Source: Clostridia bacterium
Lineage (GTDB): Bacteria > Bacillota > Clostridia > Christensenellales > Borkfalkiaceae
DNA length: 39,862 nucleotides
Direction: 5' to 3'
Assembly: GCA_017466825.1 (NCBI GenBank)
Contig: JAFTTJ010000010.1
Location: 1 to 39,862, forward strand
Below the pieces are notes generated by a model. The model was not told where the DNA came from, made no database searches, and saw only the letters and a list, made by a program, of their open reading frames with translations. The position numbers and the translations under genes were made by a program. Within the stretch, counting starts at the first letter, position 1, and the number at the start of each line of letters is the position of its first letter. Shown here in pieces: positions 1 through 39,692 of this stretch.

Positions 1-44
1 AAAACTTTTCTATCGGTTGCTCCTTTTCCCACAAAATCTTTTTT

Positions 45-170
45 CAAAATCTTTTGCGGGAGCCCTTTATGGCTCGCATTAAAGGATAAGACACGATAGA
101 CCTTTGTGGTCATCGGGGTTTAGACTTTAATGCAGTAACGCGCTTTTGCGAAGTTTATACGACTTTAAAC
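45..170 (+). repeat. Structured repeat element, copy 1 (array A)
   Basis: First of three tandem copies downstream of ftsY. The side hairpin (56-77) pairs GGAGCC with GGCTC. The long arm (76-133) begins and ends with the 9-bp pair GCATTAAAG / CTTTAATGC and closes on a CGAT-A-GACC / GGTCATCG tip with a bulged A. The small hairpin at 138-150 is CGC-type, and the 3' basal strand is at 151-170. The 5' basal strand has diverged, so this copy may be truncated or degenerate on its left side. Function unknown; no protein is encoded. Confidence 0.7.
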
Positions 171-173
171 TCG

Positions 174-299
174 TTTAAAGGTTTAGATGCGAGCAAAAGA
201 AGGCTCGCTTTTTGTTTGCGGACACAATAGACCTTGTTGGTCATTGGGGTCGAAAACTAAAAGCAGTAACGCACTTTTGCGAAGTAGATAAGCCTTTAA
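174..299 (+). repeat. Structured repeat element, copy 2 (array A)
   Basis: A complete copy. The 5' basal strand TTTAAAGGTTTAGATGC pairs with the 3' strand ending AAGCCTTTAA. The side hairpin is a perfect 6-bp GCGAGC / GCTCGC. The long arm (207-264) is an irregular stem of about 21 bp plus the tip, with the apical GACC-TTGTT-GGTC motif and bulged A. Here the tip-proximal pairs are CAAT / ATTG instead of CGAT / ATCG in copy 1, a compensatory change. A small CGC/GCG hairpin precedes the 3' basal strand. Confidence 0.82.
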
Positions 300-303
300 C
301 CCG

Positions 304-431
304 TTTAAAGGTTTAGATACGAGTACCGCTAGGCTCGCAAGGGGTTGACGGATGGGATAGACCTTGTTGGTCATCCCAGTCGGCAAGCACTTGCAGTAAA
401 CGACGCGGGGCGAAGTATATAAGGCTTTAAA
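304..431 (+). repeat. Structured repeat element, copy 3 (array A)
   Basis: A complete copy starting 130 bp after copy 2 and ending 2 bp before the ftsY stop codon (convergent). The basal strands are TTTAAAGGTTTAGATAC and GTATATAAGG. The long-arm tip is TGGGAT-A-GACC-TTGTT-GGTC-ATCCCA, a third version of the same paired positions. The small hairpin is CGC-GGG-GCG. Open reading frames across the array have no protein-like features. Confidence 0.82.
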
Positions 432-433
432 AT

Positions 434-1336
434 TTAGTCGCCGAGAATACCATCAATAAACGCATCTTTATCAAAACGTTCGATATCGTCAAGTTTTTCA
501 CCTGTGCCGACGAATGCCACGGGAACTTGCAATTCGTTACAAAGCGAAAGCACGAAACCGCCTTTTGCAGTACCGTCGAGTTTGGTTAATATAATGCCGT
601 CGATACCGACAGCGTCGTCAAAGACTTCGACTTGCGAAAGGGCGTTTTGCCCCGTTGTTGCGTCAAGCGCGATAAACTTGTAAAAATGCGCGGACGGGAA
701 TTCCCTTGCGACTACTCTTGACATCTTTTTGAGTTCTTCCATAAGGTTGGACTTGGTGTGAAGTCTGCCTGCGGTATCGATAATAAGCACGTCCGTGCCC
801 TTAGCCTTTACGGACGAAAGGGCGTCGAAAACGACTGCGGACGGATCGCTACCTTCCGAACTTTTAACTATCCTAACCTTTGCTCTTTCCGCCCAGACTT
901 CGAGTTGGTCGGCAGCGGCAGCGCGGAAAGTATCCGCCGCCGCAATAGTAACCGTCTTTTTATTGTCGGTAAAATAACGAGCCATTTTGCCGATAGACGT
1001 CGTTTTACCTACCCCGTTTACGCCGATAACCATAATTACGGCGGGGGTTTCCAAAACGAAATCGTCGGCTTGATCTAAGCAAAGTTTAAGTTCTTTTTTA
1101 AGTTCTTCGATAACGTAATCTTTATCTTTTGCCTTTTCGGCAATCATTCTATCTCTTAAATTTTCAACGATTTCGTCAGCGGTTGCAACCGAAATATCCG
1201 AAGAAATTAAAATATCTTCAAGGTCTTCGTAAAAGTCTTCGCCTATTTTATCCCTTGCAAAAAGGGTACGAAGTTTTTGCACTAAACCGTCTTTCGTCTT
1301 TTTAAGAGCGTCAAAAATTTTACTAAAAAATCCCAT
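434..1336 (-). CDS. ftsY: Signal recognition particle receptor FtsY
   Basis: SRP receptor GTPase of 300 residues. It docks the SRP-ribosome complex at the membrane for co-translational insertion. The helical N domain (about residues 1-90) is followed by the G domain: P-loop GVNGVGKTT at 105-113, then DTFRAAAADQL, DTAGR and TKLDG, all characteristic of SRP-type GTPases. The long acidic A domain of enterobacterial FtsY is absent, as is normal in Bacillota. Its ATG overlaps the smc stop by 1 bp (TAATG), so it is the last gene of the plsX-rnc-smc-ftsY block. No intrinsic terminator was found downstream; instead three copies of the structured repeat follow directly. Confidence 0.97.
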   Translation of the reverse strand: MGFFSKIFDALKKTKDGLVQKLRTLFARDKIGEDFYEDLEDILISSDISVATADEIVENLRDRMIAEKAKDKDYVIEELKKELKLCLDQADDFVLETPAVIMVIGVNGVGKTTSIGKMARYFTDNKKTVTIAAADTFRAAAADQLEVWAERAKVRIVKSSEGSDPSAVVFDALSSVKAKGTDVLIIDTAGRLHTKSNLMEELKKMSRVVAREFPSAHFYKFIALDATTGQNALSQVEVFDDAVGIDGIILTKLDGTAKGGFVLSLCNELQVPVAFVGTGEKLDDIERFDKDAFIDGILGD

Positions 1337-4300
1337 TATGCACCATAAGTATCCACAGCGTCGGCAAGTTTAACGGAAATAATCTTGGAAACGCCCTTTT
1401 CCTGCATGGTTACGCCGTAAAGAGAGTCGCCACGTTCCATAGTCACCTTTTTGTGGGTTATAACTATAAATTGAGTATCTTGCGAGAAGTTTTTAAGGTA
1501 ATTTGCAAACCTTTCTACGTTAGCGTCGTCAAGCGCCGCTTCGATTTCGTCGAGAACGACGAAAGGCATTGGGCGAAGTTTTAATATTGCAAAGAGAATT
1601 GCAATAGCCGTGAGCGCCATTTCGCCACCTGACAAAAGAGATATCTTTTGAAGTTTCTTTCCCGGCGGTTCGGCAACGATTTCAATGCCCTGTTCGAGCG
1701 GATCGTCCGTTTCGTTCTTTTCCAAAATAAGGTCGGCAGTACCGCCACCGAAAAGTTCTTTGAATATTCTCGTGAAGTTAGAGCGAATTTTAGCAAAGCC
1801 TTCGGCAAAGGTAACGCTCATTTCTTCGGTAAGTTTTTTGATAACGAGTAAAAGGTCTTCTTCCGCTTTGGTAAGGTCGTCCCTTTGCGTGGTCATATCT
1901 TGATAACGCGCGTCTAACTCGTCGAACTCTTCAATAGCGTTGTAGTTGATATTGCCAAGCGCGGAAATCTTCTTTTTAAGGGAAGCGATTTCGCTATTCG
2001 ACGTGATTATATCGTAATTATCGTCGCGAAGGGGAAGGGCGGATTCGTAGTCGATTTGATATTCGTCCCATACCCTTGCTTGCAAGTATTCGAGTTCGGT
2101 ATCGATACGGGCGAGCGCCGTTTCTTCTTTTGCCTTAGACTCTGCAAGTTTTGCAAGTTCGGCTTGAACCATATCACGCTTTAAGTTGTCTTGCTTAACT
2201 TCTTCGTTAAGTTCGACCTTTCTCGTAGCGATTCTATCTCTCTTCACCCTTACCGCGTCAAGGTATTCTTTTTCGGTATCGGTGAGCGAAACTTTTGCAA
2301 CTTCGTCTAAAAGTTTAGAAATTTCTACGTTGAGCGCGGTTATCTTTTGAGAGTTTTCGGCAACGAGATCTTCTTTTTCCTTTCTCTCAACCTTCATTCT
2401 CTCAACGTCTTCGGTAGCCGCTTTGATTTCACCGCGAAGGAATACGTTGCGCTCTTGAACTTTGTGAAGTTCGGCGGAAAGTTCGTCTCTCTTAGCGGTA
2501 TAGTCAACGAAATCGGCTTGATGCTTGTCGGCGTCGGAAGACGCTAACTCTCTCTTTTTCAAAAGTTCTTCGTTGCCTTCTTCAATAGCCGAATATTTCC
2601 TTTCGATTTCAGAAAGACGAAGGGCTATGAGCGAGTTGTCGTCCTTGCTCGCTTCGAGTTCTTTTTGAGTTTCGCTTATAGCAATTTCAAGGGCGGTAAT
2701 TTGCTCTTTTAAAATTGCAATTTGTTGCTTAGTCTCTTGGATTTCAGTCGCAACCTTTTCACTTTCGGCTTGTTGCTCGTCAATTTGCTTTAAAAATTGG
2801 GCTTTTCTCGCCGAAAGCTTATCCATTTCGGCATGCTTTTTAGCAAGTTCGTCTTCAATATCTTTAATCTTGGTGTCCATTGACAAAAGATTTGCGCCGT
2901 TGTGTCTTCTCGAACCGCCCGTCATAGTACCGGCGTTGGTTAAAATATCGCCGTCTAAAGTAGCGATTTTAAAAGCGAAACGGTACTTGTTTGCGATTTG
3001 AACGGCGTTGTCGATATTGTCAACGACGAGTGTATTGCCCAAAAGGAATTTGATAATATTGCTAAAATAATTATCGTAAGTTACGATTTCGTTTGCAAGA
3101 CCTATTACGCCTTTTTCGGAAAGGGCTTGCCTTATTTCGTAACTTTCCGGTCTTACTCTAACGCTGTTTATGGGTAAGAAAGTAGCCGAGCCCGATTCGG
3201 TTTTTCTCAAATAACTAATGAGATATTTAGCGTCTTCGGGGGTGTCGGTTACGATATGTTGAACGGCAACGCCAAGGCAAGACGTAATCGCCGCTTCGTA
3301 CTTTGATTCGGTTTTGATTATGTTTGAAACGAGCCCTTTTACTCTTTTGCCGACTTCGGGGTTGCGCTTGCTTTCAGTCATAATAAACTTGACGGGATAT
3401 TGATAGCCGTCGTAACTTTCTTTAAGGTTTTTGTAAACCTTAGCGTTTGCTTCCAAAGCCGAAATTTGAGAGTTTAAAGAATAAATCTTTCTTTCAATTT
3501 CACCAACGTAAGCCCTTGTGTCGGCAACGTCGGCTTCTCTATCTTTAAGGTCTTCCTTTAAATTGTTATGGCTCTTTTCTAAAGCGATAAGTTCGGCAGA
3601 CTTAATAGAATTTTCGGTCATTTGACCGCTCAACTTTTTGGTGAGCGATTCTATCCTAGCCAAAGACTCTATTTTGCGTTCGGAATAAACGGATTTTTCG
3701 GCCGAAAGCGAACCTATATTTTGCTTGATATCCGCAAGTGATTCAACGCTTGCTATTATCTCTTGGTGAGCGTTTTTAGCAAGTAAATCACCTTCGGTTA
3801 TTTTATCGGTCACTTTAATAAGCTCTTCGTTAAGCGCAAGAACTTTATCTTCAAGTTTTTCAATTTCCTTTTTGCAGTCGGCAGAATATTCACCCTTTTC
3901 GCGCACGCGCCTATCGAGTTCTTCAATTCTTCTTCTCGCTTCGGCGCTCTCGCCCGTAAGTCTATTTACGTCCGTACGAAGAGCGTTTACTTTTTCGTTG
4001 TAAACCTTTGCTTCGCCCGAGTGTCTTTCAAGAGCTCTCGTCTTTTCAATCAACTCTTCGTTGAGTTGGCTGATAAGTTCGTCCGCTTCACCTATTTCAC
4101 GTTGGTGTTGATTATACGCCTTTATCGCAAGGCTCAACTCTTCGTTTCTAAGCGCGGTTTGCTCTTCAATACCCTTGATACGCATTGCGATTTTATCCTT
4201 TGAACTAGCCGCGTTTTCGTGCTTGTAAAGGTATGCGTTTACTTCGTGGTATTTGAGTTGTTCACCGAGCGCGCGAGCCGCCCTAGTCTTTTCCGCCGCC

Positions 4301-4923
4301 TTTCTAAGCGGTTCTCTTTGACGCTCGAGTTCGGTGGTAATGTCTACGATACGGGTTATGTTATCTCTTACCCTATCGAGTTTACGCATGGTTTCAAGAC
4401 GTTGATTTTTGGTTTTAGCGATACCTACCGCTTCTTCAAAAATCGTCCTTCTGTCTTCGGGTTTAGACGAAAGAATTTCCGCAACTTTACCCTGACCGAT
4501 AACCGTATACCCTCCCTTACTTACACCGCATTCGTGAAGATTGTCTACGATATCACGAAGTTTAGAACGTTTTTTGTTGATGAAATACTCACTCTCGCCC
4601 GAGCGGAATAACTTTCTGGTGAAGATTACTTCGTCGTACTCAAGGTTTTTGAAAATCTTTTCGGTGTTATCGAAGATTAGCGAAACTTCGCAGTAAGAAA
4701 GGGACTTTCTGTTTTGAGTTCCGCTAAAAATTACGTCCTGCATGGACGAGCCACGGAGATTTTTTGCCGACTGCTCTCCGAGCACCCATCTGATTGCGTC
4801 GGAAACGTTACTCTTTCCGCAACCGTTAGGACCTACGATACACGTAACGCCGTTTTCAAATTGTATTTCCTGCCTATCAGCGAAAGATTTAAAGCCGATA
4901 AGTTCAATTTTCTTGAAATTCAC
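1336..4923 (-). CDS. smc: Chromosome partition protein Smc
   Basis: Condensin ATPase of 1195 residues, the usual bacterial Smc length, which acts with ScpA/ScpB (not in this window) to compact and segregate the chromosome. The N-terminal Walker A GPNGCGKSN lies at 31-39. Two long coiled-coil arms flank a hinge around residues 510-670 (GYQYPVKFIM to TMTGGSRR). The C-terminal lobe has the ABC signature LLSGGEMALTA and Walker B FVVLDEIEAALDD. The start is a GTG that overlaps the rnc stop as GTGA; the ribosome-binding site lies inside the 3' end of rnc, suggesting translational coupling. Confidence 0.97.
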   Translation of the reverse strand: MNFKKIELIGFKSFADRQEIQFENGVTCIVGPNGCGKSNVSDAIRWVLGEQSAKNLRGSSMQDVIFSGTQNRKSLSYCEVSLIFDNTEKIFKNLEYDEVIFTRKLFRSGESEYFINKKRSKLRDIVDNLHECGVSKGGYTVIGQGKVAEILSSKPEDRRTIFEEAVGIAKTKNQRLETMRKLDRVRDNITRIVDITTELERQREPLRKAAEKTRAARALGEQLKYHEVNAYLYKHENAASSKDKIAMRIKGIEEQTALRNEELSLAIKAYNQHQREIGEADELISQLNEELIEKTRALERHSGEAKVYNEKVNALRTDVNRLTGESAEARRRIEELDRRVREKGEYSADCKKEIEKLEDKVLALNEELIKVTDKITEGDLLAKNAHQEIIASVESLADIKQNIGSLSAEKSVYSERKIESLARIESLTKKLSGQMTENSIKSAELIALEKSHNNLKEDLKDREADVADTRAYVGEIERKIYSLNSQISALEANAKVYKNLKESYDGYQYPVKFIMTESKRNPEVGKRVKGLVSNIIKTESKYEAAITSCLGVAVQHIVTDTPEDAKYLISYLRKTESGSATFLPINSVRVRPESYEIRQALSEKGVIGLANEIVTYDNYFSNIIKFLLGNTLVVDNIDNAVQIANKYRFAFKIATLDGDILTNAGTMTGGSRRHNGANLLSMDTKIKDIEDELAKKHAEMDKLSARKAQFLKQIDEQQAESEKVATEIQETKQQIAILKEQITALEIAISETQKELEASKDDNSLIALRLSEIERKYSAIEEGNEELLKKRELASSDADKHQADFVDYTAKRDELSAELHKVQERNVFLRGEIKAATEDVERMKVERKEKEDLVAENSQKITALNVEISKLLDEVAKVSLTDTEKEYLDAVRVKRDRIATRKVELNEEVKQDNLKRDMVQAELAKLAESKAKEETALARIDTELEYLQARVWDEYQIDYESALPLRDDNYDIITSNSEIASLKKKISALGNINYNAIEEFDELDARYQDMTTQRDDLTKAEEDLLLVIKKLTEEMSVTFAEGFAKIRSNFTRIFKELFGGGTADLILEKNETDDPLEQGIEIVAEPPGKKLQKISLLSGGEMALTAIAILFAILKLRPMPFVVLDEIEAALDDANVERFANYLKNFSQDTQFIVITHKKVTMERGDSLYGVTMQEKGVSKIISVKLADAVDTYGA

Positions 4924-5768
4924 TTTACGTTTCTCCTTTTTCCTTTATGCGCTATCGCCCCGTTTTGCGCGCCTGCTTTCGGCTTATTTTTAGCCTTTGG
5001 CGGATTGCTCTTTGCCTGTTTTTTAGGCGTTGGGGGCGTTTTTTGTTTTATTGTCGTAGTTTCTTGTCTTGAAAGAATTTCAAGCGCTAGTCTTGCCGAT
5101 TCCTTTTCGGCGTCCGACTTTTTTCTGCCTTTTGCCGTAGCCAACTCTCTTCCGTCTACGGTAACCGCTATCGTAAAGGTCGGATCGTGGTCGGGCCCCG
5201 TCCTTTTCTTCACCGAATACAAGAGAGTGCCTAGTTTATTTTTTTGCACGTACTCTTGCAACTTGCCTTTATAGTCGGACGGTCTGCACGTTTCGGGCTT
5301 TTTGCTATTACACACTTTAATCGGAATTTTGGCAAACAAAAATCTCTTTACGAATTTTTTTGCTTCTTCTAAACCGCCGTCTAAATAAATGCCCGCTACG
5401 ATGGCTTCAAAAAGATTTTCCCTAGCCGCGCGGTGATGCTCGAAACCGTTTTTCCTTTCGCCTTCGCCAAACATTAAAAATTCGTCTAGCCCACTCTTTT
5501 CAATCGCCCTAGAAAGGGGCTCGCCCGAAACGAGTTGCTGTTTATAATCGGTCAAAAGCCCTTCGTCCGCTTGGGGGTACTTTTCCATTAAATATTCGGC
5601 GGTAATAAATCCCAAAATCGAGTCGCCAAAATACTCTAAACGCTCGTTATTTTTGACTCCGCCGTGCTCGTGCGCGTAAGAAGAGTGGGTAAAACAAAGC
5701 CTTAAAAGGGTTTTGTCTTTAAAGGAATACCCCAACTTTTCTTCGCATTCGTGTAGATAAAAAATCAT
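4920..5768 (-). CDS. rnc: Ribonuclease III
   Basis: Double-strand-specific endoribonuclease of 282 residues for rRNA and mRNA processing. The RNase III signature NERLEYFGDSILG sits at 41-53 (catalytic Asp49) and the second acidic cluster LFEAIVAG at 119-126 (Glu121). A double-stranded RNA-binding domain spans about 162-232. Residues 233-282 are an additional Lys/Pro-rich basic tail (PPTPKKQAK, KAKNKPKAG, KGKRRNVK), longer than in the usual enzyme of about 230 residues; it may add RNA affinity (inference). ATG overlaps the plsX stop as ATGA. The acpP gene often found between plsX and rnc in Bacillota is missing here. Confidence 0.96.
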   Translation of the reverse strand: MIFYLHECEEKLGYSFKDKTLLRLCFTHSSYAHEHGGVKNNERLEYFGDSILGFITAEYLMEKYPQADEGLLTDYKQQLVSGEPLSRAIEKSGLDEFLMFGEGERKNGFEHHRAARENLFEAIVAGIYLDGGLEEAKKFVKRFLFAKIPIKVCNSKKPETCRPSDYKGKLQEYVQKNKLGTLLYSVKKRTGPDHDPTFTIAVTVDGRELATAKGRKKSDAEKESARLALEILSRQETTTIKQKTPPTPKKQAKSNPPKAKNKPKAGAQNGAIAHKGKRRNVK

Positions 5769-6778
5769 TTTTCACCGCCGAGTGCGGAAAGGGCTTCTGC
5801 AATCTTTCCGCTGATGTTGAGCGAAGAGTTGTTATAGGCTTGCAAAACTGCGTTTTTAAAGGCTTCCGCCTTGGACGAACCGTGCGCTTTAACGACGGTC
5901 TTTTCCATACCGAGAAGAACTGCTCCGCCCTTTTTGTTATAGTCGATTTTGTTTTTAAGGTCTGCAAAGCATTTTTTCATAAACAAATAGCCAATCTTTG
6001 CGCTAAACGACGAACTAATGCCCGCTTTTAAATAGGATAAAATAACCTTGGTTGCGCCTTCGGTTGACTTTAAGGCTACGTTACCGCTAAAACCGTCGGC
6101 AACGACTACGTCGTAATCGCCCGAAAGAATATCTCTCGCTTCCATATTTCCTACGAAATTTATACTCTTTTCCTGTTGTAAAAGTTTAAAGGTTTCCAAG
6201 GTGAGAGCGCAACCCTTTTCGTCTTCCGTACCGTTTGACAAAAGGGCTACTCTCGGATTTTTAACGCCGAGAACTTCTCTCATATACACGCTACCCATAA
6301 CGGCGAACTGAACGAGCCAATTAGGCTTGCAGTCTACGTTTGCACCGCAGTCAAGAAGCATAGTTTGACCGTCCGCAAGGTTGGGAAGAAGGGGAGCAAG
6401 GGCGGGGCGAATTACCCCCTTTATTCTCTTTGACAAAATTACCGACGCCGTTAGCACCGCGCCCGTAGACCCTGCCGAAACGAAAGCCTTTGCGTTTTCG
6501 TCTTCCTTTAATATTTTAACCGCTCTCACTATCGAAGAGTCCTTTTTAACTCTAATCGCTTCGGTGGGTGATTCTTCACAAGTTATTACTTCGGTTGCGT
6601 TTTCAACGGTAACTCTCGCTACGTCGTAAGTTTCGTTTTGCAAAATTGCGTTTATCCCGTCCTGCTTGCCGACGAGCACTATATCGAAACCTTCTCTTTC
6701 GTTTATTGCGGCGATTGCGCCTTTTACAATTTCAGCAGGCGAATGATCTCCGCCGTATGCGTCGATAATAATCTTCAT
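5765..6778 (-). CDS. plsX: Phosphate acyltransferase PlsX
   Basis: A 337-residue PlsX that makes acyl-phosphate from acyl-ACP, the first step toward phosphatidic acid with PlsY and PlsC. The N-terminus MKIIIDAYGGDHSPAEIVKG is the typical nucleotide-fold start (DAxGGDxxP), followed by ALLSNGTEDEKG and ADGFSGNVALKSTEG, which are family hallmarks. It overlaps rnc by 4 bp. Upstream, a 19-bp unit carrying the ribosome-binding site AAGGATAG is duplicated in tandem (6777-6814). Confidence 0.95.
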   Translation of the reverse strand: MKIIIDAYGGDHSPAEIVKGAIAAINEREGFDIVLVGKQDGINAILQNETYDVARVTVENATEVITCEESPTEAIRVKKDSSIVRAVKILKEDENAKAFVSAGSTGAVLTASVILSKRIKGVIRPALAPLLPNLADGQTMLLDCGANVDCKPNWLVQFAVMGSVYMREVLGVKNPRVALLSNGTEDEKGCALTLETFKLLQQEKSINFVGNMEARDILSGDYDVVVADGFSGNVALKSTEGATKVILSYLKAGISSSFSAKIGYLFMKKCFADLKNKIDYNKKGGAVLLGMEKTVVKAHGSSKAEAFKNAVLQAYNNSSLNISGKIAEALSALGGEK

Positions 6779-6814
6779 AATTTCTATCCTTCAATATAAT
6801 TTCTATCCTTCAAC
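6777..6814 (-). repeat. Tandem duplication of the plsX ribosome-binding site
   Basis: Two adjacent 19-bp units on the plus strand, ATAATTTCTATCCTTCAAT (6777-6795) and the same with a final C (6796-6814). On the coding strand each contains TTGAAGGATAG, so plsX has two equivalent Shine-Dalgarno sequences, only the nearer one being at a usable distance from the ATG. Simple slippage or recombination duplication is the likely origin. Confidence 0.85.
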
Positions 6815-6841
6815 ATTTAGCGTTTTACGAATTTTAGCAAA

Positions 6842-19700: not shown

Positions 19701-19717
19701 ATAGTTATTGAAATGAA

Positions 19718-19844
19718 TTAAAGGGGGAGAAACAAGCAAGGCAAGGCTCACTTCGTGACACAAGACACGATAGACCTTTGTGGTCATCGGGGTTTGGGGC
19801 ACAAAGTAGAAACGCAGCATTGCGTAGTTTATACGCCTTTAAAT
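19718..19844 (+). repeat. Structured repeat element, copy 4 (single)
   Basis: A complete single copy whose last base touches the thrS stop codon (convergent). The basal strands TTAAAGGGGGAGAAAC and GTTTATACGCCTTTAA pair. The long arm begins GTGACACAAG and ends TTTGGGGCAC with the tip CGAT-A-GACC-TTTGT-GGTC-ATCG. The small hairpin ACGCA-GCAT-TGCGT is the best of all copies. The basal-stem closing pairs are GAAAC/GTTT, against GATAC/GTAT in copies 3, 7 and 8. Confidence 0.82.
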
Positions 19845-21781
19845 TACCAGATTTCTAAATCCTTAACCTGCCTTTTAACCATTGCTATGAAGTCTTCAAC
19901 CTTCATTTTGCCGATATCACCCTTACCGCGCTGACGGACGGCAACTTCGCCGTTTAAGGCTTCTTGTTCGCCAATAACGAGCATATAGGGCAACTTTTCA
20001 AGTTGAGCGTCACGAATTTTCTTACCGATTTTTTCGGGGCGCAAATCTTTTTCTGGGCGAATACCTGCGTCGATTAACATATCGAAAACCTTATGGCAAT
20101 ACTCTTCGCTCTTTTCAGAAATATCCATGATTCTAGCCTGAACGGGGGCTACCCAAAGGGGAAGCGCGCCTGCGTATTTTTCAAGCATTAAAGCGAGCGT
20201 TCTTTCATAACAGCCGATACTCGTTCTGTGAATAACGTACGGGTATTTCTTTTCGCCGTCGTCGTCGGTGTAAACCATGCCGAAACGCTTTGCGAGTTGG
20301 AAGTCGATTTGAATAGTAATAAGAGTGTCTTCTTTGCCGAAAACGTTTTTAATTTGAATATCGAGTTTAGGACCGTAGAAAGCCGCTTCTCCGTCGGCTT
20401 CGCTATACTCTAAGCCGATATCGTCCAAAATGTTACGCATTGCGTCTTGAACGTTTTCCCATTCTTCTTCAGAGCCGATATATTTTTCCTTGTTGTCTTT
20501 ATCCCATTTTGAGAAACGGTAACTTACCGAATCGTCAAGCCCAACGGCTTTGAGCATGTAAACGGCAAGATCCAAACAGCCCTTAAATTCTTCTTCAAGT
20601 TGAGCGGGAGTACAAGCAAGGTGACCTTCGGAAATGGTAAATTGTCTTACTCTGATAAGACCGTGCATTTCGCCTGAATCTTCATTTCTGAAAAGGGTTG
20701 AAGTTTCGCCAAAACGCATGGGAAGATCTTTATAACTTCTAGGCCTATTGAGATAAACTTGGAATTGAAAGGGGCAAGTCATAGGACGAAGGGCAAAAAC
20801 TTCTTTATCCTTGCCTTCTTCACCCATAATGAACATACCGTCCCTATAATGGTCCCAATGCCCCGAAATTTTATAGAAATCAGACTTTGCGAAAAGGGGC
20901 GTTTTGGTTAAAATATAACCCCTTCTGTACTCTTCGTCTTCAACGAAACGCTGTAAAACTTGAATAGTTTTACTACCCTTTGCAAGCATAACGGGAAGAC
21001 CTTGACCGATAGTATCAACGGTGGTGAAATATTCGAGTTCTCTACCGATTTTGTTGTGATCGCGAAGTTTTGCTTCTTCAACCGCCTTTAAATACTCTTC
21101 AAGTTGAGCCTTCTTTTCAAAAGCCGTGCCGTAAATACGGGTGAGCATTTTGTTTTTAGAGTTGCCACGCCAATATGCGCCGGTTACCGAAGTGAGTTTA
21201 AACGCCTTGATGAGCCCCGTTGACGGAAGATGTGGACCACGGCAAAGGTCGGTGAAATCGCCTTGCTTATAAAAAGAAATGGTACTATCTTCAGGAAGAT
21301 CGTTTATAAGTTGAACTTTATAAGGCTCGCTAAACTTAGTCATGAGCGCAACGGCCGACTTACGGTCGAGTTCAAACCTTTCAATGGGGAAATTGCACTT
21401 GATAATCTTATTCATTTCCTCTTCGATTTTTGCCAAATCTTCTTGAGAAATAGGGGTTTTGAAATCAACGTCGTAATAAAAACCGTTTTCAACGGTAGGA
21501 CCGATTGCCAAAGCGCAGGTAGGATAAATCGACTTTACCGCTTGCGCTAAAACGTGCGCGCAAGTGTGGCGATAAATATTGAGCGCTTCAGGGTCTTTCA
21601 TAGTTACGATTCTAACTTCGGCGTCTTCGTTTATCGCGTAGGATAAATCTACGAGTTCGCCGTTCACTTTGCCGGCAACGGCGTTTCTTCTTAAACCTTC
21701 GCTGATTGCTTGCGCAACGCCAGCAACGGTCGTACCTTGTGCTAGTTCTAATATCGAACCGTCTGCAAGTTTTACGTTCAT
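19844..21781 (-). CDS. thrS: Threonyl-tRNA synthetase
   Basis: A 645-residue ThrRS charging tRNA-Thr. The N-terminal TGS domain (1-60) is followed by the editing domain with RHTCAHVLAQ, and then the class II core: GAYWRG, PMTCPFQFQVY (zinc Cys), RFGETSTLFRNEDSGE, RVRQFTISEGH (zinc His) and HRTSIGCYERTLALMLEK. The C-terminal anticodon-binding domain starts around LPLWVAPVQ. The start is ATG with AAGGAG 8 nt upstream. Expression is very probably controlled by the T-box leader directly upstream. Confidence 0.97.
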   Translation of the reverse strand: MNVKLADGSILELAQGTTVAGVAQAISEGLRRNAVAGKVNGELVDLSYAINEDAEVRIVTMKDPEALNIYRHTCAHVLAQAVKSIYPTCALAIGPTVENGFYYDVDFKTPISQEDLAKIEEEMNKIIKCNFPIERFELDRKSAVALMTKFSEPYKVQLINDLPEDSTISFYKQGDFTDLCRGPHLPSTGLIKAFKLTSVTGAYWRGNSKNKMLTRIYGTAFEKKAQLEEYLKAVEEAKLRDHNKIGRELEYFTTVDTIGQGLPVMLAKGSKTIQVLQRFVEDEEYRRGYILTKTPLFAKSDFYKISGHWDHYRDGMFIMGEEGKDKEVFALRPMTCPFQFQVYLNRPRSYKDLPMRFGETSTLFRNEDSGEMHGLIRVRQFTISEGHLACTPAQLEEEFKGCLDLAVYMLKAVGLDDSVSYRFSKWDKDNKEKYIGSEEEWENVQDAMRNILDDIGLEYSEADGEAAFYGPKLDIQIKNVFGKEDTLITIQIDFQLAKRFGMVYTDDDGEKKYPYVIHRTSIGCYERTLALMLEKYAGALPLWVAPVQARIMDISEKSEEYCHKVFDMLIDAGIRPEKDLRPEKIGKKIRDAQLEKLPYMLVIGEQEALNGEVAVRQRGKGDIGKMKVEDFIAMVKRQVKDLEIW

Positions 21782-32617: not shown

Positions 32618-32641
32618 GCAAACCCACAATAGCGGGTTTGC
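32618..32641 (-). terminator. Terminator of the cyclophilin-like lipoprotein gene
   Basis: GCAAACCC / GGGTTTGC stem with TTATTTTG on the minus strand; also plausible on the plus strand (ATTTTATTTTG). Confidence 0.8.
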
Positions 32642-32664
32642 ATTTTATTTTGTGGTATTTAAAA

Positions 32665-33606: not shown

Positions 33607-33646
33607 TATGACCTCCGTCATTATAATTTGTCAAATTTTTAACATA

Positions 33647-33679
33647 TACTATTATATTTATAATAGTAAAATAAGTCAA
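33647..33679 (-). promoter_or_regulatory. Promoter with perfect dyad, upstream of the cyclophilin-like gene
   Basis: On the minus strand TTGACT (33674-33679) and TATAAT (33651-33656), 17-bp spacer. A perfect palindrome TACTATTATA-TT-TATAATAGTA (33647-33668) covers the -10 box, which might bind a repressor. Confidence 0.75.
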
Positions 33680-33756
33680 CTTATTTTTACCTTTGTACCG
33701 TGAAATTTGCGAAAATTTCATTTTTTATCGCAAATTAAACCTAAAAACCGACTTAG

Positions 33757-34851
33757 TTAAAGGTTTAAATACCAAAACAGCCATATAACTAGCGCAATAA
33801 GACCAAGTCCTAGCAAAATCGCTATGATTACGCGGATAGCCGAAACGGGCGTTTTGCCCTTTACCTTACCCGTACTGCCGTTTATTCTTACGGGGTACTC
33901 TTTTTTATTATACTTATACACGAGCGTGTATACGGGCAATAAAAGGTATTTATAGGTTACGTTGGAGTGAGTCGTAGTAACGTTGAGATAGTCGACTACG
34001 TCGCAATGAAGTCTACTTCTTATCTGCGACCTAATTTCGTCGTCGATAACCCTTTTTGCGCCGTTCCAACAATAATCCAAATTGACTTGATAGCCGTCGG
34101 CAACGTAACCCGAAAGGTATTTCTTTTCGTAAACGCAAGCCTGCGCCGTGTCAAACGGCGCTAAGGAATTGAGTTCGGTTTGAGTAAATTTGGAATTAGA
34201 CGCAATCATGACGTCGTTAAAAAACGAAGCGTGAGTTCCGCTCACGTTGCGGTATACGATATACGTTTCCGTCCTACGGTTTTTACCGCTACCGACCACT
34301 CTCGTGCGCCTGTCGCCAACCCTGCCGACGTAGTGAGAATTAGTATTGCTATCAAAAGTAAAACACGGCTCGTAAACGCCTACAAGATTTTCAACGTTTA
34401 AACTCTTTTTAAATTTACTAGGCGCAAAAAGGCGTGATTTAGCCCACTTTTTTGAATATTCGCTGGCTTTTTCCGCCCCAAACTGAAAGGGTATAACCAT
34501 GTGCGGACGAATAGTTTTAAAACTGCCGTCTTTAACGACGTGAGTCGTTTGACAAAACGGGCATTTCTTCGCTTCTTCGTCGGCGGAAATAACGACCACC
34601 GCGCCACAGTTATCGCACTTATAGGTAGACTGCTCATCTTGCCCCCAAGTTTCGGCTTGTGCAAAACCGAGCGCTATATCGTTTTCAATAACTTCAAAAT
34701 CTTTTTCAATTTCACCCGTCGTTCCACAATGTTCGCATTTTAAAGACTGCGAATCGGCGTCGAAAACCATCGCGCTACCGCAATTTGGACATTTTGCGCT
34801 AAACGTATCAACTTCTTTGCCTTCTTGGGCAAGATTTCTTTCTTCGGACAT
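33757..34851 (-). CDS. YdjG-like zinc-ribbon membrane protein
   Basis: A 364-residue protein with two N-terminal zinc-ribbon pairs (CPNCGSAM...CEHCG, CDNCGAV...CPFC) and a C-terminal transmembrane helix (AIRVIIAILLGLGLIALVIWLFWY). The region between includes a conserved VIPFQFGAEKASEYSKKWAKSR and LPVYTLVYKYNKKEYPVRINGSTGKVKG, as in Bacillus subtilis YdjG and related TFIIB-type zinc ribbon proteins. YdjG and YdjI work with a PspA homologue at the membrane in Bacillus; here a YdjI-like gene lies 630 bp upstream. ATG at 34851 is chosen for its AAGGGGTGG site; GTG three codons earlier is the alternative. Confidence 0.78.
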   Translation of the reverse strand: MSEERNLAQEGKEVDTFSAKCPNCGSAMVFDADSQSLKCEHCGTTGEIEKDFEVIENDIALGFAQAETWGQDEQSTYKCDNCGAVVVISADEEAKKCPFCQTTHVVKDGSFKTIRPHMVIPFQFGAEKASEYSKKWAKSRLFAPSKFKKSLNVENLVGVYEPCFTFDSNTNSHYVGRVGDRRTRVVGSGKNRRTETYIVYRNVSGTHASFFNDVMIASNSKFTQTELNSLAPFDTAQACVYEKKYLSGYVADGYQVNLDYCWNGAKRVIDDEIRSQIRSRLHCDVVDYLNVTTTHSNVTYKYLLLPVYTLVYKYNKKEYPVRINGSTGKVKGKTPVSAIRVIIAILLGLGLIALVIWLFWYLNL

Positions 34852-34978
34852 TGTTGCCACCCCTTAATTTTAGCATCAACTTTGCAATTTCAGTCACGAG
34901 TTGAGTTTGCGTTTTATCAATTTTCGGCAATCACCTACAAAAAACGATTTTTTAAGATTAACGCCGAATAAAACGCTA

Positions 34979-34998
34979 CCCTTCGAAAAATCGAAGGG
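34979..34998 (-). terminator. Terminator of the DUF1858 gene
   Basis: CCCTTCGA / TCGAAGGG stem with TAGCGTTTTATT on the minus strand, 15 bp downstream of the stop codon. Confidence 0.7.
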
Positions 34999-35013
34999 CG
35001 CATAAAAATAAAA

Positions 35014-35211
35014 TTATTCGATATCGTTGAGTTCGTCGAGCATTTTTTCAAGGTCTGCTCCGTGAACTGCAGCCGCTTCGCCAACGGTTTCGCCGTGAGC
35101 GATTGCGCATCCAAGGCAATGCATGCCGTAACTCATTAAAATTGCTGCAGCGTTTGGATTGATTTCAAGCGCGTCGGTAATGATGGTGTTTTCAGTAATT
35201 TTTCTTTCCAT
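35014..35211 (-). CDS. DUF1858 domain protein
   Basis: A 65-residue protein with the family pattern ITENTIITDALEINPNAAAILMSYGMHCLGCAIAHGETVGEAAA. The CLGC motif is conserved and implies redox or metal/iron-sulfur binding; the family is often seen near hybrid-cluster or redox genes. The start ATG has GGAG 9 nt upstream; a TTG five codons earlier is unlikely. It is monocistronic with its own terminator. Confidence 0.9.
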   Translation of the reverse strand: MERKITENTIITDALEINPNAAAILMSYGMHCLGCAIAHGETVGEAAAVHGADLEKMLDELNDIE

Positions 35212-35329
35212 AATATTTATCTCCAAAAATTTGTTTTTAAGTTGTTTTGGGTTTTTACCCTTGTTTTTATAAGTTTGGGTATTTACACTTGGTTTATAAT
35301 GGCGATATCACAGCGTATGACTGATTAAA

Positions 35330-35458
35330 TTTAAACGGATTAGATGCAAGCAAGACGGGATTTTTACGAGATTTTTGCAAGGGAATTACCTTGTTGGTAA
35401 TCGGAATTGCAAAAAACCGTAAAAAGACTAGTATTGCGAAGCATATAAGCCTTTAAAT
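35330..35458 (+). repeat. Structured repeat element, copy 5 (single, divergent)
   Basis: Basal strands TTTAAACGGATTAGATGC and GCATATAAGCCTTTAAA pair (closing pairs GATGC/GCAT). The long arm is U/A rich: TTTTTAC and TTTTTGCA on the left pair with TGCAAAAA and GTAAAAA on the right, giving a stem longer than in other copies. The tip is ATTACC-TTGTT-GGTAAT, so GACC/GGTC has changed to TACC/GGTA with pairing kept, and the bulged A is absent. The side hairpin is poorly preserved. Confidence 0.75.
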
Positions 35459-35484
35459 ATCAGTCACGAGATGTGATAGAGCTT

Positions 35485-36543
35485 TTACAATTTATGTCCG
35501 CATTCGGGACAGAATTTAGCGGTTGCGCCAACCTTACCGCCACACTCTGGGCAGAATTTAGCAACGGGTTGCTTAGTTCCGCACTCTGGGCAGAATTTCG
35601 AGCCCTTTGCAATTTCTTTTCCGCATCCCGCGCAAGTAATAGTTGCAGTTGCGGTTTGGGGCTTTTCAGGTTGAGCGGGCTGGTTTTGCTGTTGATTGAA
35701 GACGCTCGCCATCATTCCGCCAATGCCAACGCCTGCGCCCATCCCAACGCCTGCGCCGATAAACGCTCCGCCTGCGCCGGGGTTTTTAGCCGCTTCTTTA
35801 ACGGCTTCCGCAGCGTTGATTTTCATCAAAGTATCCGCTTCGCTCTTCAAAACGCCGAGTTTAGCCCTTTCGTCAATAGCCTTTTCAACTTCGGGCGGAA
35901 CGGACATGTTTTCAATGAAAAGATTGGTCATTTCAAGACCGATTTCTCTAAATTTGTCTTGAATTTTAGCCTTTACGATAGCGTTGAATTCCAAAGTGTT
36001 CGCAGCCAAATCTATTGCCGAAATCCTACTTTCGCCCAAGGCATCCGCAAGGGACGAAATGAGCATGGTTTTTAAATAACCCGTTATATCAGAAGTTTTG
36101 AACGAACTGTTCGTTCCAAACAATTCTTTTAAGAACACGCCGGGATCGTTAACCCTAAACGCAAACGCGCCGAAGCCCCTAACTCTAATCATGCCGAATT
36201 CGGGATCACGCATCATAATGGGGTTCATAGTTCCCCACTTTATATCCGTAAACTGTTTGGTGTTAATAAAGTAAACGTCTACGGTAATAGGCGTTTCAAA
36301 GCCGTACTTCCACGCCGTAAGTTTTGACAAAACGGGAAAGACTTCCGTGCCGAGAGTATAAAGACCGGGGCCGAACACGTCGGCAATTTGACCTTTATGT
36401 ACGAAAACGGCAACCTGCGATTCCTTTACGGTGAGCGTAGATTTGTCGTTTACTTCGCGACCTTGTTTTTTAAAAGGATATTTGTAGACGAGCGTATTTT
36501 TACTGTCGTCGTCCCATAAGATATTAAGCCTAAATAATGCCAT
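35485..36543 (-). CDS. YdjI-like SPFH-domain protein with C-terminal zinc ribbons
   Basis: A 352-residue protein with an SPFH/virion-core-like domain (about 20-235): KESQVAVFVHKGQIADVFGPG, YFINTKQFTDIKWGTMNPI, GAFAFRVNDPGVFLKELFG, EMTNLFIENMSVPPEVEKAIDERAKLG. A Gly/Ala/Met-rich linker (GAGGAFIGAGVGMGAGVGIGG) is followed by three treble-clef or half-ribbon Cys motifs (CAGCGKEI, KFCPECG repeated three times). This layout is as in Bacillus subtilis YdjI. SPFH proteins form membrane-associated rings. The start is ATG with AAAGGAG 7 nt upstream. The stop codon lies 27 bp from repeat copy 5. Confidence 0.85.
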   Translation of the reverse strand: MALFRLNILWDDDSKNTLVYKYPFKKQGREVNDKSTLTVKESQVAVFVHKGQIADVFGPGLYTLGTEVFPVLSKLTAWKYGFETPITVDVYFINTKQFTDIKWGTMNPIMMRDPEFGMIRVRGFGAFAFRVNDPGVFLKELFGTNSSFKTSDITGYLKTMLISSLADALGESRISAIDLAANTLEFNAIVKAKIQDKFREIGLEMTNLFIENMSVPPEVEKAIDERAKLGVLKSEADTLMKINAAEAVKEAAKNPGAGGAFIGAGVGMGAGVGIGGMMASVFNQQQNQPAQPEKPQTATATITCAGCGKEIAKGSKFCPECGTKQPVAKFCPECGGKVGATAKFCPECGHKL

Positions 36544-36649
36544 AACAATCTCCTTTCTTTCTTGATAAAGAAAGTATATCATAAATTTTATCGTTTTTCA
36601 ATAAATTTATAAGTTTTTTTCAAATTTTTTATCTTTGATAAATTTGCGA

Positions 36650-38521
36650 CTAAATTTCTTCTTTAGGTTTTTTCAAAGTGCGCATAGAATTTAGTATCGC
36701 AAGCACCGAAACGCCTACGTCTGCAAACACGGCGTACCACATTCCGCCCACGCCAAACGCCGATAAAACGAGCGCCGAAAACTTAACCAAAAGAGCGAAA
36801 ATTATATTTTGAGTAACTATTCTCATCGTCTTTTTCGCTATTTTTTTTGCGGTAACAACGCCGTAAATTTTATCGTGCATAAGCACCGCGTCGGACGCTT
36901 CGATAGCGCTGTCGCTTCCTATACCGCCCATTGAAACGCCCACGTCGGCGCGCATTATTACGGGGGCGTCGTTTATTCCGTCGCCGACGAAACACATTAC
37001 GTCGCCTTGCTTTTTGTTACGAATAATCTCTTCCAACGCGGTCATTTTATCTTGCGGTAAAAGTCCGCTTTTGTAATTTTCAACGCCGAGTTTTTGAGCG
37101 ACCTTTTTTGCCGAATTGCAGTCGTCGCCCGTAAGCATATAAATTTGAGATCCTTGTTTTTTTAGTTCGGCAATCGTCTTAAAAGCATCTTCTCGCACGG
37201 TATCCGCAAGGGTTATTGAGCCTAAAAAAACACCGTTAATCGCCATATAGACCGTCGTTTGCGAATTATCGCTTAATTTTTCACCGCTTGGAATAGCCAC
37301 TTCGTAATCTTTTAAAAGGGCTAAGTTTCCGCACAAAACGATTTCGTCTTTACCCTTTGCAACAACGCCTTTTCCAGCAATTTCGGTTATCTCGTATTCG
37401 CCAAGATTATCTTTTTCGCCAAAGTATTCGTTTGCAACGCTCTTTGCTATCGGGTGATTTGAGTCCCTTTCACAAATATAGGCGTAGCGCAAAATCTCAT
37501 CTCTTTTATCACTCGGCTCAACCGCTACGACTGAAAATTCGCCTTTCGTCAACGTGCCTGTCTTATCAAAGACGAATACGTTAGCCTTTGCTAGTTGCTC
37601 AACGTAATTCGCGCCCTTAATTAAAATCCCAGAACTTCCCGCTCCGCCGATTCCGCCGAAAAAGCCTAGCGGAACGCTTATAACCAAGGCGCACGGGCAA
37701 CTAACTACTAAAAAGGTTAAAGCCCTTTCCGCCCAAACGAGCCATCCGCCGAAAAATAGCGACGGAATAAGAAATAGGGTAAGCGCGCATATAACGACAA
37801 CCGGCGTATAATATTTTGAAAAAACCGAAATAAAATTTTCAACTTTTGCTTTTTTTACCGAAGCGTTTTCAACCATGTCCAAAATTTTAGCAACCGTTCC
37901 GTCGTAAAATTCCTTTTCAACGCTAATAGTTAATTTACCGTCTAAGCACACTGTTCCGCTCAAAACTTGGTCGCCAATCGAAACCGCTAACGGCTTGCTT
38001 TCACCTGTCAGAGCCGACGTGTTTAAATGACACGCCCCGTCGACAACGATTCCGTCAAGCGGAATTTTATCCCCCGCTCTAACTACAATAATCTCGCCTA
38101 CCGACACTTCGTCGGGCTCTACGATTTCTTCATTGCCGTCCCTTACAACTCTCGCAACGTCGGGGCGAATATCCATAAGTTTAGTAACCGACTCTCTCGA
38201 CTTGCCGACGGCGTAACTTTGAAAACACTCGCCAATTTGATAAAAGAGCATTACGGCGCACCCTTCTAAAAACTCGCCTAGCACGAACGCGCCAATCGAC
38301 GCTATTGCCATAAGAAAATTTTCGTCGAAGATTTTACCGCGTAAGATATTTCTTCCCGCCTTAAATAAAACGTCGTACGAAGCGCCTAAATAAACTAAAA
38401 GAAAGGGCGCTAGCCATACCTGCCACGCCGTATCGGCAAAGATTATTTTTAATATAAAAAGTGGAATATATACGCCTAAGCAAATTAGCGTTCTTATAAG
38501 TCTTTTTTTGTTTTTTGACAT
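36650..38521 (-). CDS. Zn/Cd/Pb-exporting P1B-2-type ATPase without N-terminal HMA domain
   Basis: A 623-residue heavy-metal ATPase. The metal-path CPC is in VVSCPCALVIS, the phosphorylated Asp in FDKTGTLTKGE, the ATP-site HP motif in CERDSNHPIAKS, the actuator TGES in SALTGESKPL and the hinge in FVGDGINDAPVI. The last membrane helix has FADVGVSVLAILNSMR, where the Asp is the ligand typical of ZntA/CadA (P1B-2). It exports Zn2+, Cd2+ or Pb2+. The N-terminal heavy-metal-binding domain usually fused to such pumps is encoded separately just upstream (38554-38772). Confidence 0.92.
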   Translation of the reverse strand: MSKNKKRLIRTLICLGVYIPLFILKIIFADTAWQVWLAPFLLVYLGASYDVLFKAGRNILRGKIFDENFLMAIASIGAFVLGEFLEGCAVMLFYQIGECFQSYAVGKSRESVTKLMDIRPDVARVVRDGNEEIVEPDEVSVGEIIVVRAGDKIPLDGIVVDGACHLNTSALTGESKPLAVSIGDQVLSGTVCLDGKLTISVEKEFYDGTVAKILDMVENASVKKAKVENFISVFSKYYTPVVVICALTLFLIPSLFFGGWLVWAERALTFLVVSCPCALVISVPLGFFGGIGGAGSSGILIKGANYVEQLAKANVFVFDKTGTLTKGEFSVVAVEPSDKRDEILRYAYICERDSNHPIAKSVANEYFGEKDNLGEYEITEIAGKGVVAKGKDEIVLCGNLALLKDYEVAIPSGEKLSDNSQTTVYMAINGVFLGSITLADTVREDAFKTIAELKKQGSQIYMLTGDDCNSAKKVAQKLGVENYKSGLLPQDKMTALEEIIRNKKQGDVMCFVGDGINDAPVIMRADVGVSMGGIGSDSAIEASDAVLMHDKIYGVVTAKKIAKKTMRIVTQNIIFALLVKFSALVLSAFGVGGMWYAVFADVGVSVLAILNSMRTLKKPKEEI

Positions 38522-38553
38522 AAAAGCCCCTTTATAAGTCGATTATCGCCACT

Positions 38554-38772
38554 TTATAGTCCTAAAAGAGTTACGTCAGGCAATATTCTTTTTGCCGAAT
38601 TTTTAACGTTTTCTAAAACGCCGTCTTTGCTATCGTCGTACTCTATTATGAGTTTTTGAGCCATAAAGTTTACTGTTGCGGACATTATCCCGTCAACTTT
38701 GGCAACCGTTCTTTCAAGCAACATTCCACAGTTTGCGCAATCTAAATTTTCTAATTTAATAACTTTTTTCAT
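38554..38772 (-). CDS. Stand-alone heavy-metal-associated (HMA) domain protein
   Basis: A 72-residue HMA domain (MKKVIKLENLDCANCGMLLE) with the metal-binding Cys12 and Cys15 in the position of the ZntA GMDCxxC motif. It probably delivers Zn2+/Cd2+ to, or senses metal for, the ATPase encoded 32 bp downstream. It lies between the repressor gene and the pump gene in one operon. Confidence 0.9.
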   Translation of the reverse strand: MKKVIKLENLDCANCGMLLERTVAKVDGIMSATVNFMAQKLIIEYDDSKDGVLENVKNSAKRILPDVTLLGL

Positions 38773-38781
38773 ATTCTCCCC

Positions 38782-39150
38782 TTAATCGCAATCAGTACCT
38801 AATACGTGCTCGATTGCCATTTTAAATATAATTTTTACGTGACTGTCGGCAAGCGAATAAAAAACTTCCTTACCGCTTTTTCTCGCTTTAACGAGTTTGC
38901 TCTGTCTTAAAATGCGCAGTTGATGTGAAATTGCGCTCTTTGTCATGCCCAAAAGTTTGCCAATATCACACACGCACATTTCGCTCTCGAAAAGGGCAGT
39001 TAAAATTTTAGTTCGGGTACTATCGCCAAACACTTTAAAAAGTTCGGCAACGTCGTAGACGACGTCTTCGCTCGGCATCGTTGCGCTCACCCTTTCGACA
39101 ACTTCATCGTGCAAAATTTCCTTTTCACACGTTTCAATTTCTTCTATCAT
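38782..39150 (-). CDS. ArsR/SmtB-family metal-responsive repressor (CadC-like)
   Basis: A 122-residue winged-helix repressor. The recognition segment is VCDIGKLLGMTKSAISHQLRILRQSKLV. Metal sites: the alpha3N-type cysteines C59 and C61 (SEMCVCD) plus C8 in the N-terminal arm, as in CadC; and a partial alpha5 site with D102, H104 and H115 (ADSHVKIIFKMAIEHV). It should repress the operon until Zn/Cd/Pb binds. The start ATG has AAGGAG 7 nt upstream. It is the first gene of the operon. Confidence 0.92.
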   Translation of the reverse strand: MIEEIETCEKEILHDEVVERVSATMPSEDVVYDVAELFKVFGDSTRTKILTALFESEMCVCDIGKLLGMTKSAISHQLRILRQSKLVKARKSGKEVFYSLADSHVKIIFKMAIEHVLGTDCD

Positions 39151-39183
39151 ACTCTCTCCTTAATTATATTATTGAGAATAAAA

Positions 39184-39221
39184 AATAATAACAGTTGAAT
39201 AATTGTTCAACTGTTATTATT
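39184..39221. promoter_or_regulatory. Operator for the ArsR/CadC-like repressor
   Basis: A perfect 16-bp inverted repeat, AATAATAACAGTTGAA / TTCAACTGTTATTATT, with a 6-bp centre. Its core TGAA-TAATTG-TTCA fits the SmtB/CadC operator form TGAA-N6-TTCA. It covers the start site region and overlaps the -10 box. Confidence 0.88.
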
Positions 39222-39247
39222 ATATCACTATGTTTTATAATAGTCAA
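39219..39247 (-). promoter_or_regulatory. Metal-resistance operon promoter
   Basis: On the minus strand TTGACT (39242-39247) and TATAAT (39219-39224), 17-bp spacer, with the operator over the -10 region and start site. Confidence 0.88.
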
Positions 39248-39264
39248 GAGTTTTATAAAGTTTT

Positions 39265-39294
39265 TTGCGTTATATTTGTACAGTCCTTTAAAAT
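39265..39294 (+). promoter_or_regulatory. Candidate plus-strand promoter of repeat array B
   Basis: TTGCGT (39265-39270) and TAAAAT (39289-39294), 18-bp spacer. The expected start site (about 39301) falls right at the first base pairs of repeat copy 6. Confidence 0.5.
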
Positions 39295-39303
39295 CAAACT
39301 GGT

Positions 39304-39431
39304 TTTAAAGGTTGAGAAACGAGCTAGCCAAGGCTCGTAAATTGATTTTGGATGGGATAGACCTTGTTGGTCATCCCAGTCAAGAGCGATTTACATAAAC
39401 GATGGATAGCGACGTTTATATGCCTTTAAAA
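39304..39431 (+). repeat. Structured repeat element, copy 6 (array B)
   Basis: Basal strands TTTTAAAGGTTGAGAAAC and GTTTATATGCCTTTAAA pair. The side hairpin ACGAGC / GCTCGT is perfect. The long arm starts GTAAATTG and ends CGATTTAC, with one U.G pair, and has the tip TGGGAT-A-GACC-TTGTT-GGTC-ATCCCA. The small 3' hairpin is poorly formed. Confidence 0.82.
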
Positions 39432-39433
39432 GG

Positions 39434-39562
39434 TTTAAAGGATTAGATACGAGGTAGGCTAGGCTCATTTTTATTGACAAGGGTTTGGTAGACCTCACTG
39501 GTCACCGAAGTCTTGTCAATAAAATAGAAACGACGCATACCGAAGTATATAAGCCTTTAAAA
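39434..39562 (+). repeat. Structured repeat element, copy 7 (array B)
   Basis: Basal strands TTTAAAGGATTAGATAC and GTATATAAGCCTTTAAA. The long arm TTTTATTGACAAG / CTTGTCAATAAAA is a perfect 13-bp stem up to an internal loop. The tip has TCACT as loop in place of TTGTT. Almost identical to copy 8. Confidence 0.85.
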
Positions 39563-39564
39563 GG

Positions 39565-39692
39565 TTTGAAGGATTAGATACGAGGTAGGCTAGGCTCATT
39601 TTATTGACAAGGGTTTGGTAGACCTCACTGGTCACCGAAGTCTTGCCAATAAAATAGAAACGACGCATACCGAAGTATATAAGCCTTTAAAA
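39565..39692 (+). repeat. Structured repeat element, copy 8 (array B)
   Basis: Near-identical to copy 7: the visible differences are TTTGAAGG for TTTAAAGG, one T fewer in the A/T run and CTTGCCAA for CTTGTCAA in the 3' arm (which breaks one A-U pair). This points to a recent tandem duplication. It ends next to the 5S terminator. Confidence 0.85.

Follow-up and report, generated by a model that had tools for sequence, protein, structure and literature searches.

Repeat copies and neighbouring genes in the window

The window, that is, the whole stretch of DNA analysed here (39,862 nt), is contig C38 of a draft assembly of 1.65 Mb in 39 contigs from a Clostridia bacterium (GTDB family Borkfalkiaceae). 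It contains eight copies of a unit of about 127 bp (length about 125-130 bp), designated F1, all of them on the plus strand when searched with the covariance model R1 (Table 1). A preliminary description, made from the letters of the sequence, had listed eight repeat copies, and the model recovered them at the same positions. The copy that it had placed at 45 is intact from about position 71; it is not a plain copy, its 5' part belonging to another repeat, F2. The R1 scores of the window copies (75-133 bits) are high partly by construction, because seven of the eight belonged to the training set of R1.

We take the 300-aa gene next to copies 1-3 to be FtsY-like by its motifs, and the 645-aa gene next to copy 4 presumably encodes a threonyl-tRNA synthetase-like protein. 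Copy 5 lies 28 nt off the 3' end of an antisense gene (35485-36582). By eye, the CCTTTAAA end of copy 8 merges with a terminator-like hairpin at its A-tract (a T-tract when read on the opposite strand).

Table 1. F1 and F2 repeats and adjoining genes in the window, with groups of repeats at other loci
Feature	Position	Strand	Remarks
F2 tail	1..70	+	truncated by contig start
F1 copy 1	43..169	+	intact from about 71; 43-70 is the end of F2; 74.7 bits
F1 copy 2	174..300	+	133.2 bits
F1 copy 3	304..431	+	3 nt short of antisense gene 434-1336; 119.5 bits
F1 copy 4	19717..19843	+	touches 3' end of antisense gene 19844-21781; 121.8 bits
F1 copy 5	35331..35457	+	most divergent intact copy; 75.5 bits
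F1 copy 6	39304..39430	+	123.2 bits
F1 copy 7	39434..39561	+	122.5 bits
F1 copy 8	39565..39691	+	125.7 bits
300-aa gene	434..1336	-	F1 copies 1-3 at its 3' end
645-aa gene	19844..21781	-	F1 copy 4 at its 3' end
5S rRNA gene	39732..39848	-	terminator-like hairpin between 5S and F1 copies 6-8
F2 examples	window 1-70; L004 1627-1850; L007 1700-2150		L004 on the minus strand
F1 copies with GTATGACTGAT/ATCAGTCACGAGTTGTGATAGAGCC flanks	L182 2879-3134; L190, L194, L208, L224, L234, L246
Tandem-mismatch subfamily	L213, L214, L215, L231, L232, L236, L237

F1 folds as one long hairpin on one strand

Covariation and, for seven of the eight window copies, energy folding agree on one long interrupted hairpin that keeps conserved unpaired internal loops. 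Copy 1, which is without its own 5' arm, does not give the long hairpin in energy folding. Every window copy is more stable than its dinucleotide shuffles (z from -4.3 to -8.7). Covariation was assessed in two alignments. The first, A2, is a MAFFT alignment of 31 copies from this genome, from which R1 was built; it was not fitted to structure, yet the structure was derived from it. Here 90.5% of the cells are paired in the hairpin model, a share that drops to 31-48% when the structure is slid, and double-sided changes occupy 226 cells as compared to 73.6 +/- 7 in shuffles. The second, A4, comprises 110 copies of related genomes (107 distinct) and shows double-sided changes in 42 of 43 pairs (1147 cells, 335 +/- 18 in shuffles), figures that lean towards structure because A4 was aligned by fit to the model. 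In both alignments the cells are not independent events. G.U cells outnumber A.C cells on the plus strand by 73 to 5 in A2 and by 199 to 42 in A4, or by 43 to 5 and 109 to 42 when one nearly invariant G.U pair is left out (A2 columns 50/79; 89 of 104 lettered cells in A4). This excess identifies the plus strand as the folding strand.

The preliminary description had drawn a four-way junction with two side hairpins. Its TTTAAAGG/CCTTTAAA base is borne out in the aligned copies, its conserved tip with a bulged A recurs as GACC-TnnnT-GGTC, and its outer arm, variable between copies yet self-pairing, is confirmed in A2. The distinction that it made from REP elements and simple palindromes likewise holds, and the repeat is structured, with very strong covariation. 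The junction itself gave way to the single long hairpin: base and long arm are common to both models, but the four-way model scores lower. The GAG/CTC and CGC/GCG side hairpins do not appear as separate helices in energy folding or covariation; taken as helices, each has one double-change pair among the 31 copies and most changes are pair-breaking, position 18/34 of the GAG/CTC helix being A.C in 49 of the 107 copies of the wider set.

An ordinary MITE-like palindrome could also carry arms of this kind, if they were kept complementary by template switching with no selection on structure. Template switching at quasi-palindromes would yield complementary arms that differ by locus, as the arms of F1 do. 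Against this, the conserved unpaired internal loops and the nearly invariant G.U pair stay uncorrected, the G.U bias is pronounced in both alignments (in A4 even without the invariant pair), and pairing at the base ends after about 11-13 bp. We consider this explanation improbable.

By eye, the outer-arm sequences form a limited set of types that are common to copies elsewhere in the genome, and recombinant copies exist with non-matching arms. Chimeric copies at L013 1200-1326, L019 1504-1629 and L005 1218-1345 have one arm of one type and one of another, the change-over lying at the tip or within the inner helix. The basal stem of one apparent subfamily (Table 1) shows, again by eye, a recurring tandem G.A / A.G mismatch, for example TTTAAGACGTT with AACGGATTAAA.

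A second repeat is nested in F1

The second repeat, F2, has GCGTCGCAA / TTGCGACGC at one end and GGGAAAAGGAGCAAACGG as its body, and nests in hairpin loops of F1, either the GAG/CTC loop or the GACC/GGTC tip. Fuller relatives of the window's F2 tail start with GCGTCGCAA after the CGAG of F1. At L004, L028 and other loci F2 lies inside the GAG/CTC loop, with sequence present on both sides, and ends just ahead of where F1 copy 1 resumes. Paired F2 copies, 154-167 nt apart, were seen on contigs C7, C11, C16 and C17. Some F1 copies are themselves flanked by GTATGACTGAT, whole or in part, and ATCAGTCACGAGTTGTGATAGAGCC, which looks like nesting at the tip of a further hairpin. At L021, L079, L170, L186, L219 and L247 the F1 arrays have a short GGATGCAACGTCACGTTGC-related palindrome on their distal side. 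For the assembly it is relevant that no fewer than eight contig ends of this MAG are located precisely within F1 or F2.

F1 is positioned at the 3' ends of antisense genes

In this genome R1 gives 74 hits in 47 arrays of 1-4 copies, none of mixed strand, and near-identical copies occur at separate loci (98% over 128 nt, 97% and 95% over 99 nt). The 3'-side neighbour could be judged for 31 of the 47 arrays. In 30 of the 31 it runs antisense and points its 3' end at the element, and 22 of these 30 arrays lie at most 14 nt from the gene end. At named loci elsewhere 71 of 79 arrays have a 3' neighbour, which is antisense in 64; random orientation would give half. Distances from element to gene end cluster at -14, -4 and 0 to +5, and the stop codon falls in the basal stem or right beside it. 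Where the genes could be named, they are housekeeping genes and not cassettes. Other arrays, such as copies 6-8 behind the 5S gene, abut terminator-like hairpins by eye.

Outward from the core, the two ends of F1 pair in a locus-specific manner over about 11 positions and then stop (128 copies). Nine of these positions are 72-95% paired, and the outermost two reach 78% and 59%; with partners swapped between copies pairing is 42-79%. The G.U bias is weaker in this basal arm (52 G.U to 27 A.C, summed over 12 positions).

Distribution among related genomes

Within the same GTDB family 95 of 151 genomes, counting the one analysed here, gave an R1 hit, and they represent 15 of the 18 genera; at most 23 candidates were scored per genome, and 56 genomes were without a hit. 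A wider covariance model, R2, gave hits in 62 of 248 genomes of the order (this one included), 46 of them in 13 other families, and in 18 of 299 genomes of the phylum, again counting this one. The filters at order and phylum level were stricter, with weak matches lost, and the R2 E-values are rough, a few hits having values no better than about 5e-4. Sixteen distant members were inspected. All 16 have complementary bases by eye, 14 have an antisense 3' neighbour, within 40 nt in 11 cases, and three (L358, L359, L363) are again located at a queA end. The distant member at L366 1501-1758 adjoins an FMN riboswitch.

A first sequence pattern had no match in contigs. A shorter one matched at least 103 stretches, and 6 of the 80 listed were in unrelated taxa and were taken for chance. 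Among the matches listed, the named carriers are Clostridia/Clostridiales MAGs, mostly from ruminant gut by their titles, plus one Christensenella sp. MAG. The genomes are draft assemblies, and the named ones are nearly all MAGs. Two viral contigs with the tip motif gave no R1 match, and one F1 copy found no blastn match in phage and plasmid sets; a phage or plasmid vehicle was set aside on these results.

queA ends are filled or empty and share elements across genera

When both flanks were compared for empty sites, queA was the main gene to yield information. At queA the gene-side basal arm is the last ~12 nt of the gene. An automatic test, which demanded complementarity at 9 or more of 12 positions, flagged 34 of 71 compared queA ends as filled; by eye it errs both ways (no core in L318, L330 and L336; a core in L156, L337, L342, L350 and L357). 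In genus g6 some species have filled queA ends and some have remnants there; in others the end is empty and a few nt separate it from the following gene. By eye two clearly different cores occupy this site in g6 (G121/G063 vs G142/G052/G039). An AMP-binding enzyme gene likewise has filled ends in certain species and empty ones elsewhere. F1 shows presence/absence variation at orthologous sites of both genes, a MITE-type feature; inverted basal arms are present too, with neither a cognate enzyme nor a clear target-site duplication found beside them.

Near-identical elements were found next to diverged genes. Between G063 (genus g6) and G136 (genus g2), identity is 50-75% per 20-nt bin from -220 to -40 of the queA end, rises to 80-90% in the last two queA bins and reaches 90-100% over the next 160 nt, and the two share the final 15 coding nt exactly. 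The same jump at queA is seen between G025 (g7) and G066 (g9), with 24 identical coding nt. In 406 pairs of 29 filled queA ends, element identity is at least 80% in 19 pairs; 18 of these span different genera and 9 have coding identity below 70%. The best pairs have element and coding identities of 97.6% vs 61% and 96.0% vs 63%, and over all 406 pairs the two correlate at 0.205. F1 apparently moves between genera into the same gene end, judging from these comparisons. So far the diverged coding sequence contradicts a transfer of the whole queA gene region. Nor was the whole operon transferred, because the genes behind the element differ: by eye, a tgt-like gene in G063 and others in G136.

In G053 the sequence behind the element resembles the queA end (DAMFIE and stop) of G097, an unfilled genome of the same genus, and we read this single case as the presumed displaced original queA end. 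At L293, L338, L319 and L348 further copies of queA-like C-terminal codons precede the following element and a spacer TCCCGTAA recurs, and these arrays look like stacked units. By eye, the queA copies of G115 and G086 have mismatches of the kind opposite to the G.U bias.

A resident structured RNA under selection, acting as an antisense or 3'-end regulator, has to be weighed here; its arms would co-evolve with the coding sequence to close the basal stem on the gene end. Long co-evolution in place could be an alternative source of the compensatory changes in the basal arm at queA. The extreme covariation with its G.U bias and the one nearly invariant G.U pair fit such an RNA, as does basal pairing that is limited in length and follows each species' own queA end. 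We nevertheless think it unlikely, given that 56 of the 151 family genomes have no hit as against 74 hits here, that near-identical elements stand beside diverged genes, and that recombinant copies have unmatched arms by eye. For a mobile F1, a basal arm carried along with the element would, from the cross-genus comparison, be simpler than a guide arm or inverted copying.

Searches for known families and for a cognate enzyme

The preliminary description had recognised no known family in the repeat, and Rfam offered none that fits. A scan of the window gave no family for F1 above the gathering cut-off, one F1 array searched with E up to 5 returned five miRNA matches and one XIST match, all far below the cut-offs, and at 18 element loci (16 of them distant members) no match fell on an element. 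The description of F1 was found neither in Rfam nor in the portions of the literature covered by the search.

Searches for reverse transcriptase, Y1 transposase and integron integrase yielded no cognate enzyme. Of 30 genomes, 4 have RVT_1: 3 of the 16 with high copy number, among them the genome analysed here, and 1 of the other 14. RVT_1 does not track copy number, and a retron or group II intron derivative was therefore dropped. An IS200 or REP-RAYT origin was dropped likewise, as Y1_Tnp, found in 10 of the 30, does not track copy number either (4 of 16 high-copy genomes, not this one, and 6 of 14 genomes without an R1 hit). The end tags GTAG and CGTC occur in 7 and 5 of 103 copies, at or below chance (~13% per 4-mer). 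A target-site duplication gave no clear signal in the same 103 copies, with exact direct repeats of at least 5 nt at the ends of 30 copies vs 99 of 515 random pairings.

Could F1 be a site like attC, a one-strand hairpin at a gene 3' end that serves an integron-type recombinase, or another tyrosine recombinase, as its substrate? The sites of attC are also positioned at gene 3' ends, and F1 shares with them a hairpin on the antisense strand, variable stems with conserved structure and arrays. No genome of 33 has an integron integrase above the TIGR02249 cut-off; sub-threshold matches occur in 32 of the 33 and also in 14 of 14 control genomes, other tyrosine recombinases being common in these genomes. 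R boxes, the motif used for the attC test, are present at the stem base in 0 of 107 distinct copies, and the named genes are housekeeping genes and not cassettes. Together these results make an attC-like site very improbable.

Discussion

The F1 repeat probably represents a previously undescribed family of small non-autonomous mobile hairpin elements. Mobility is favoured because copy number differs greatly between related genomes (0 to 74 hits), because the same queA end carries F1 in certain species and lacks it elsewhere, and because near-identical queA elements adjoin diverged coding sequence across genera.

In kind, F1 falls among the small palindromic elements that are non-autonomous, to which ERIC/RU-1 belong. 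In the passages cited, ERIC and RU-1 of enterobacteria are about 127 bp long, form one long stem-loop and are mostly intergenic and non-autonomous, and RU-1 is able to supply the C-terminal codons of a gene (PMC2759123, PMC2267715). F1 is like them, as they are described there, in length, in its one long stem-loop, in its mostly intergenic position and in being non-autonomous. At blastn sensitivity, one F1 copy (39434-39561) had no match in 20,395 E. coli records (E 1e-3). The stems differ in that F1 changes compensatorily, whereas ERIC is known to keep its stem sequence. TA ends and a TA target duplication are further marks of ERIC/RU-1. REP, CGTC-tagged palindromes and Rickettsia palindromic elements are described, in the part of the source cited, as short and mainly downstream of genes, some within genes, and no transposase is known there for the CGTC type (PMC3733652). 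F1 shares the downstream position given in that account; unlike REP, it is longer, has conserved internal loops and lacks GTAG or CGTC end tags. The bcr1 repeat is mobile, and to our knowledge gene-end targeting with carried codons is not among its properties. In the text cited, bcr1 of the Bacillus cereus group is a 147-167 bp repeat with a predicted common secondary structure (PMC2267715); both are thus structured repeats, compared here by description. The section cited on attC sites describes a one-strand hairpin with variable stems, recombined by structure (PMC2727003). F1 resembles attC, so described, in these respects and in its gene 3' end, and differs in having no R boxes, no integrase above cut-off and no cassettes seen. 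What is unusual about F1 is that its stems change in a compensating way, that it lies antisense at gene ends and that elements in the same site are apparently exchanged between genera.

How such an element might move can be outlined from its structure and placement. F1 would move as an entire hairpin, stem base to stem base. The recognised form, which may be single-stranded DNA or RNA, would be the single long hairpin made by the strand that is antisense to the gene at whose 3' end F1 lies, and a trans-acting recombinase or transposase may recognise the conserved internal loops and the tip. The gene-adjacent arm would provide, or be made to fit, the final codons and the stop, and the protein would thus stay intact on insertion. 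We tentatively suggest, as a possibility rather than an expectation, that F1 is a strand-specific hairpin homing to particular gene 3' ends, queA foremost, with an arm that brings replacement codons and a stop: integron-like and recognised by structure, operating without an integron, a cassette gene or a known enzyme, and distributed across Clostridia.

If F1 is mobile in this manner, gut Clostridia would harbour a common class of mobile DNA that is so far undescribed, within the literature and Rfam searched, and selection on the hairpin of a mobile element would be visible through base-pair covariation. Its insertion would follow a simple rule for doing no harm, namely to enter at the stop codon and bring the last codons, and the family would offer a natural system for finding a new structure-specific recombinase or transposase.
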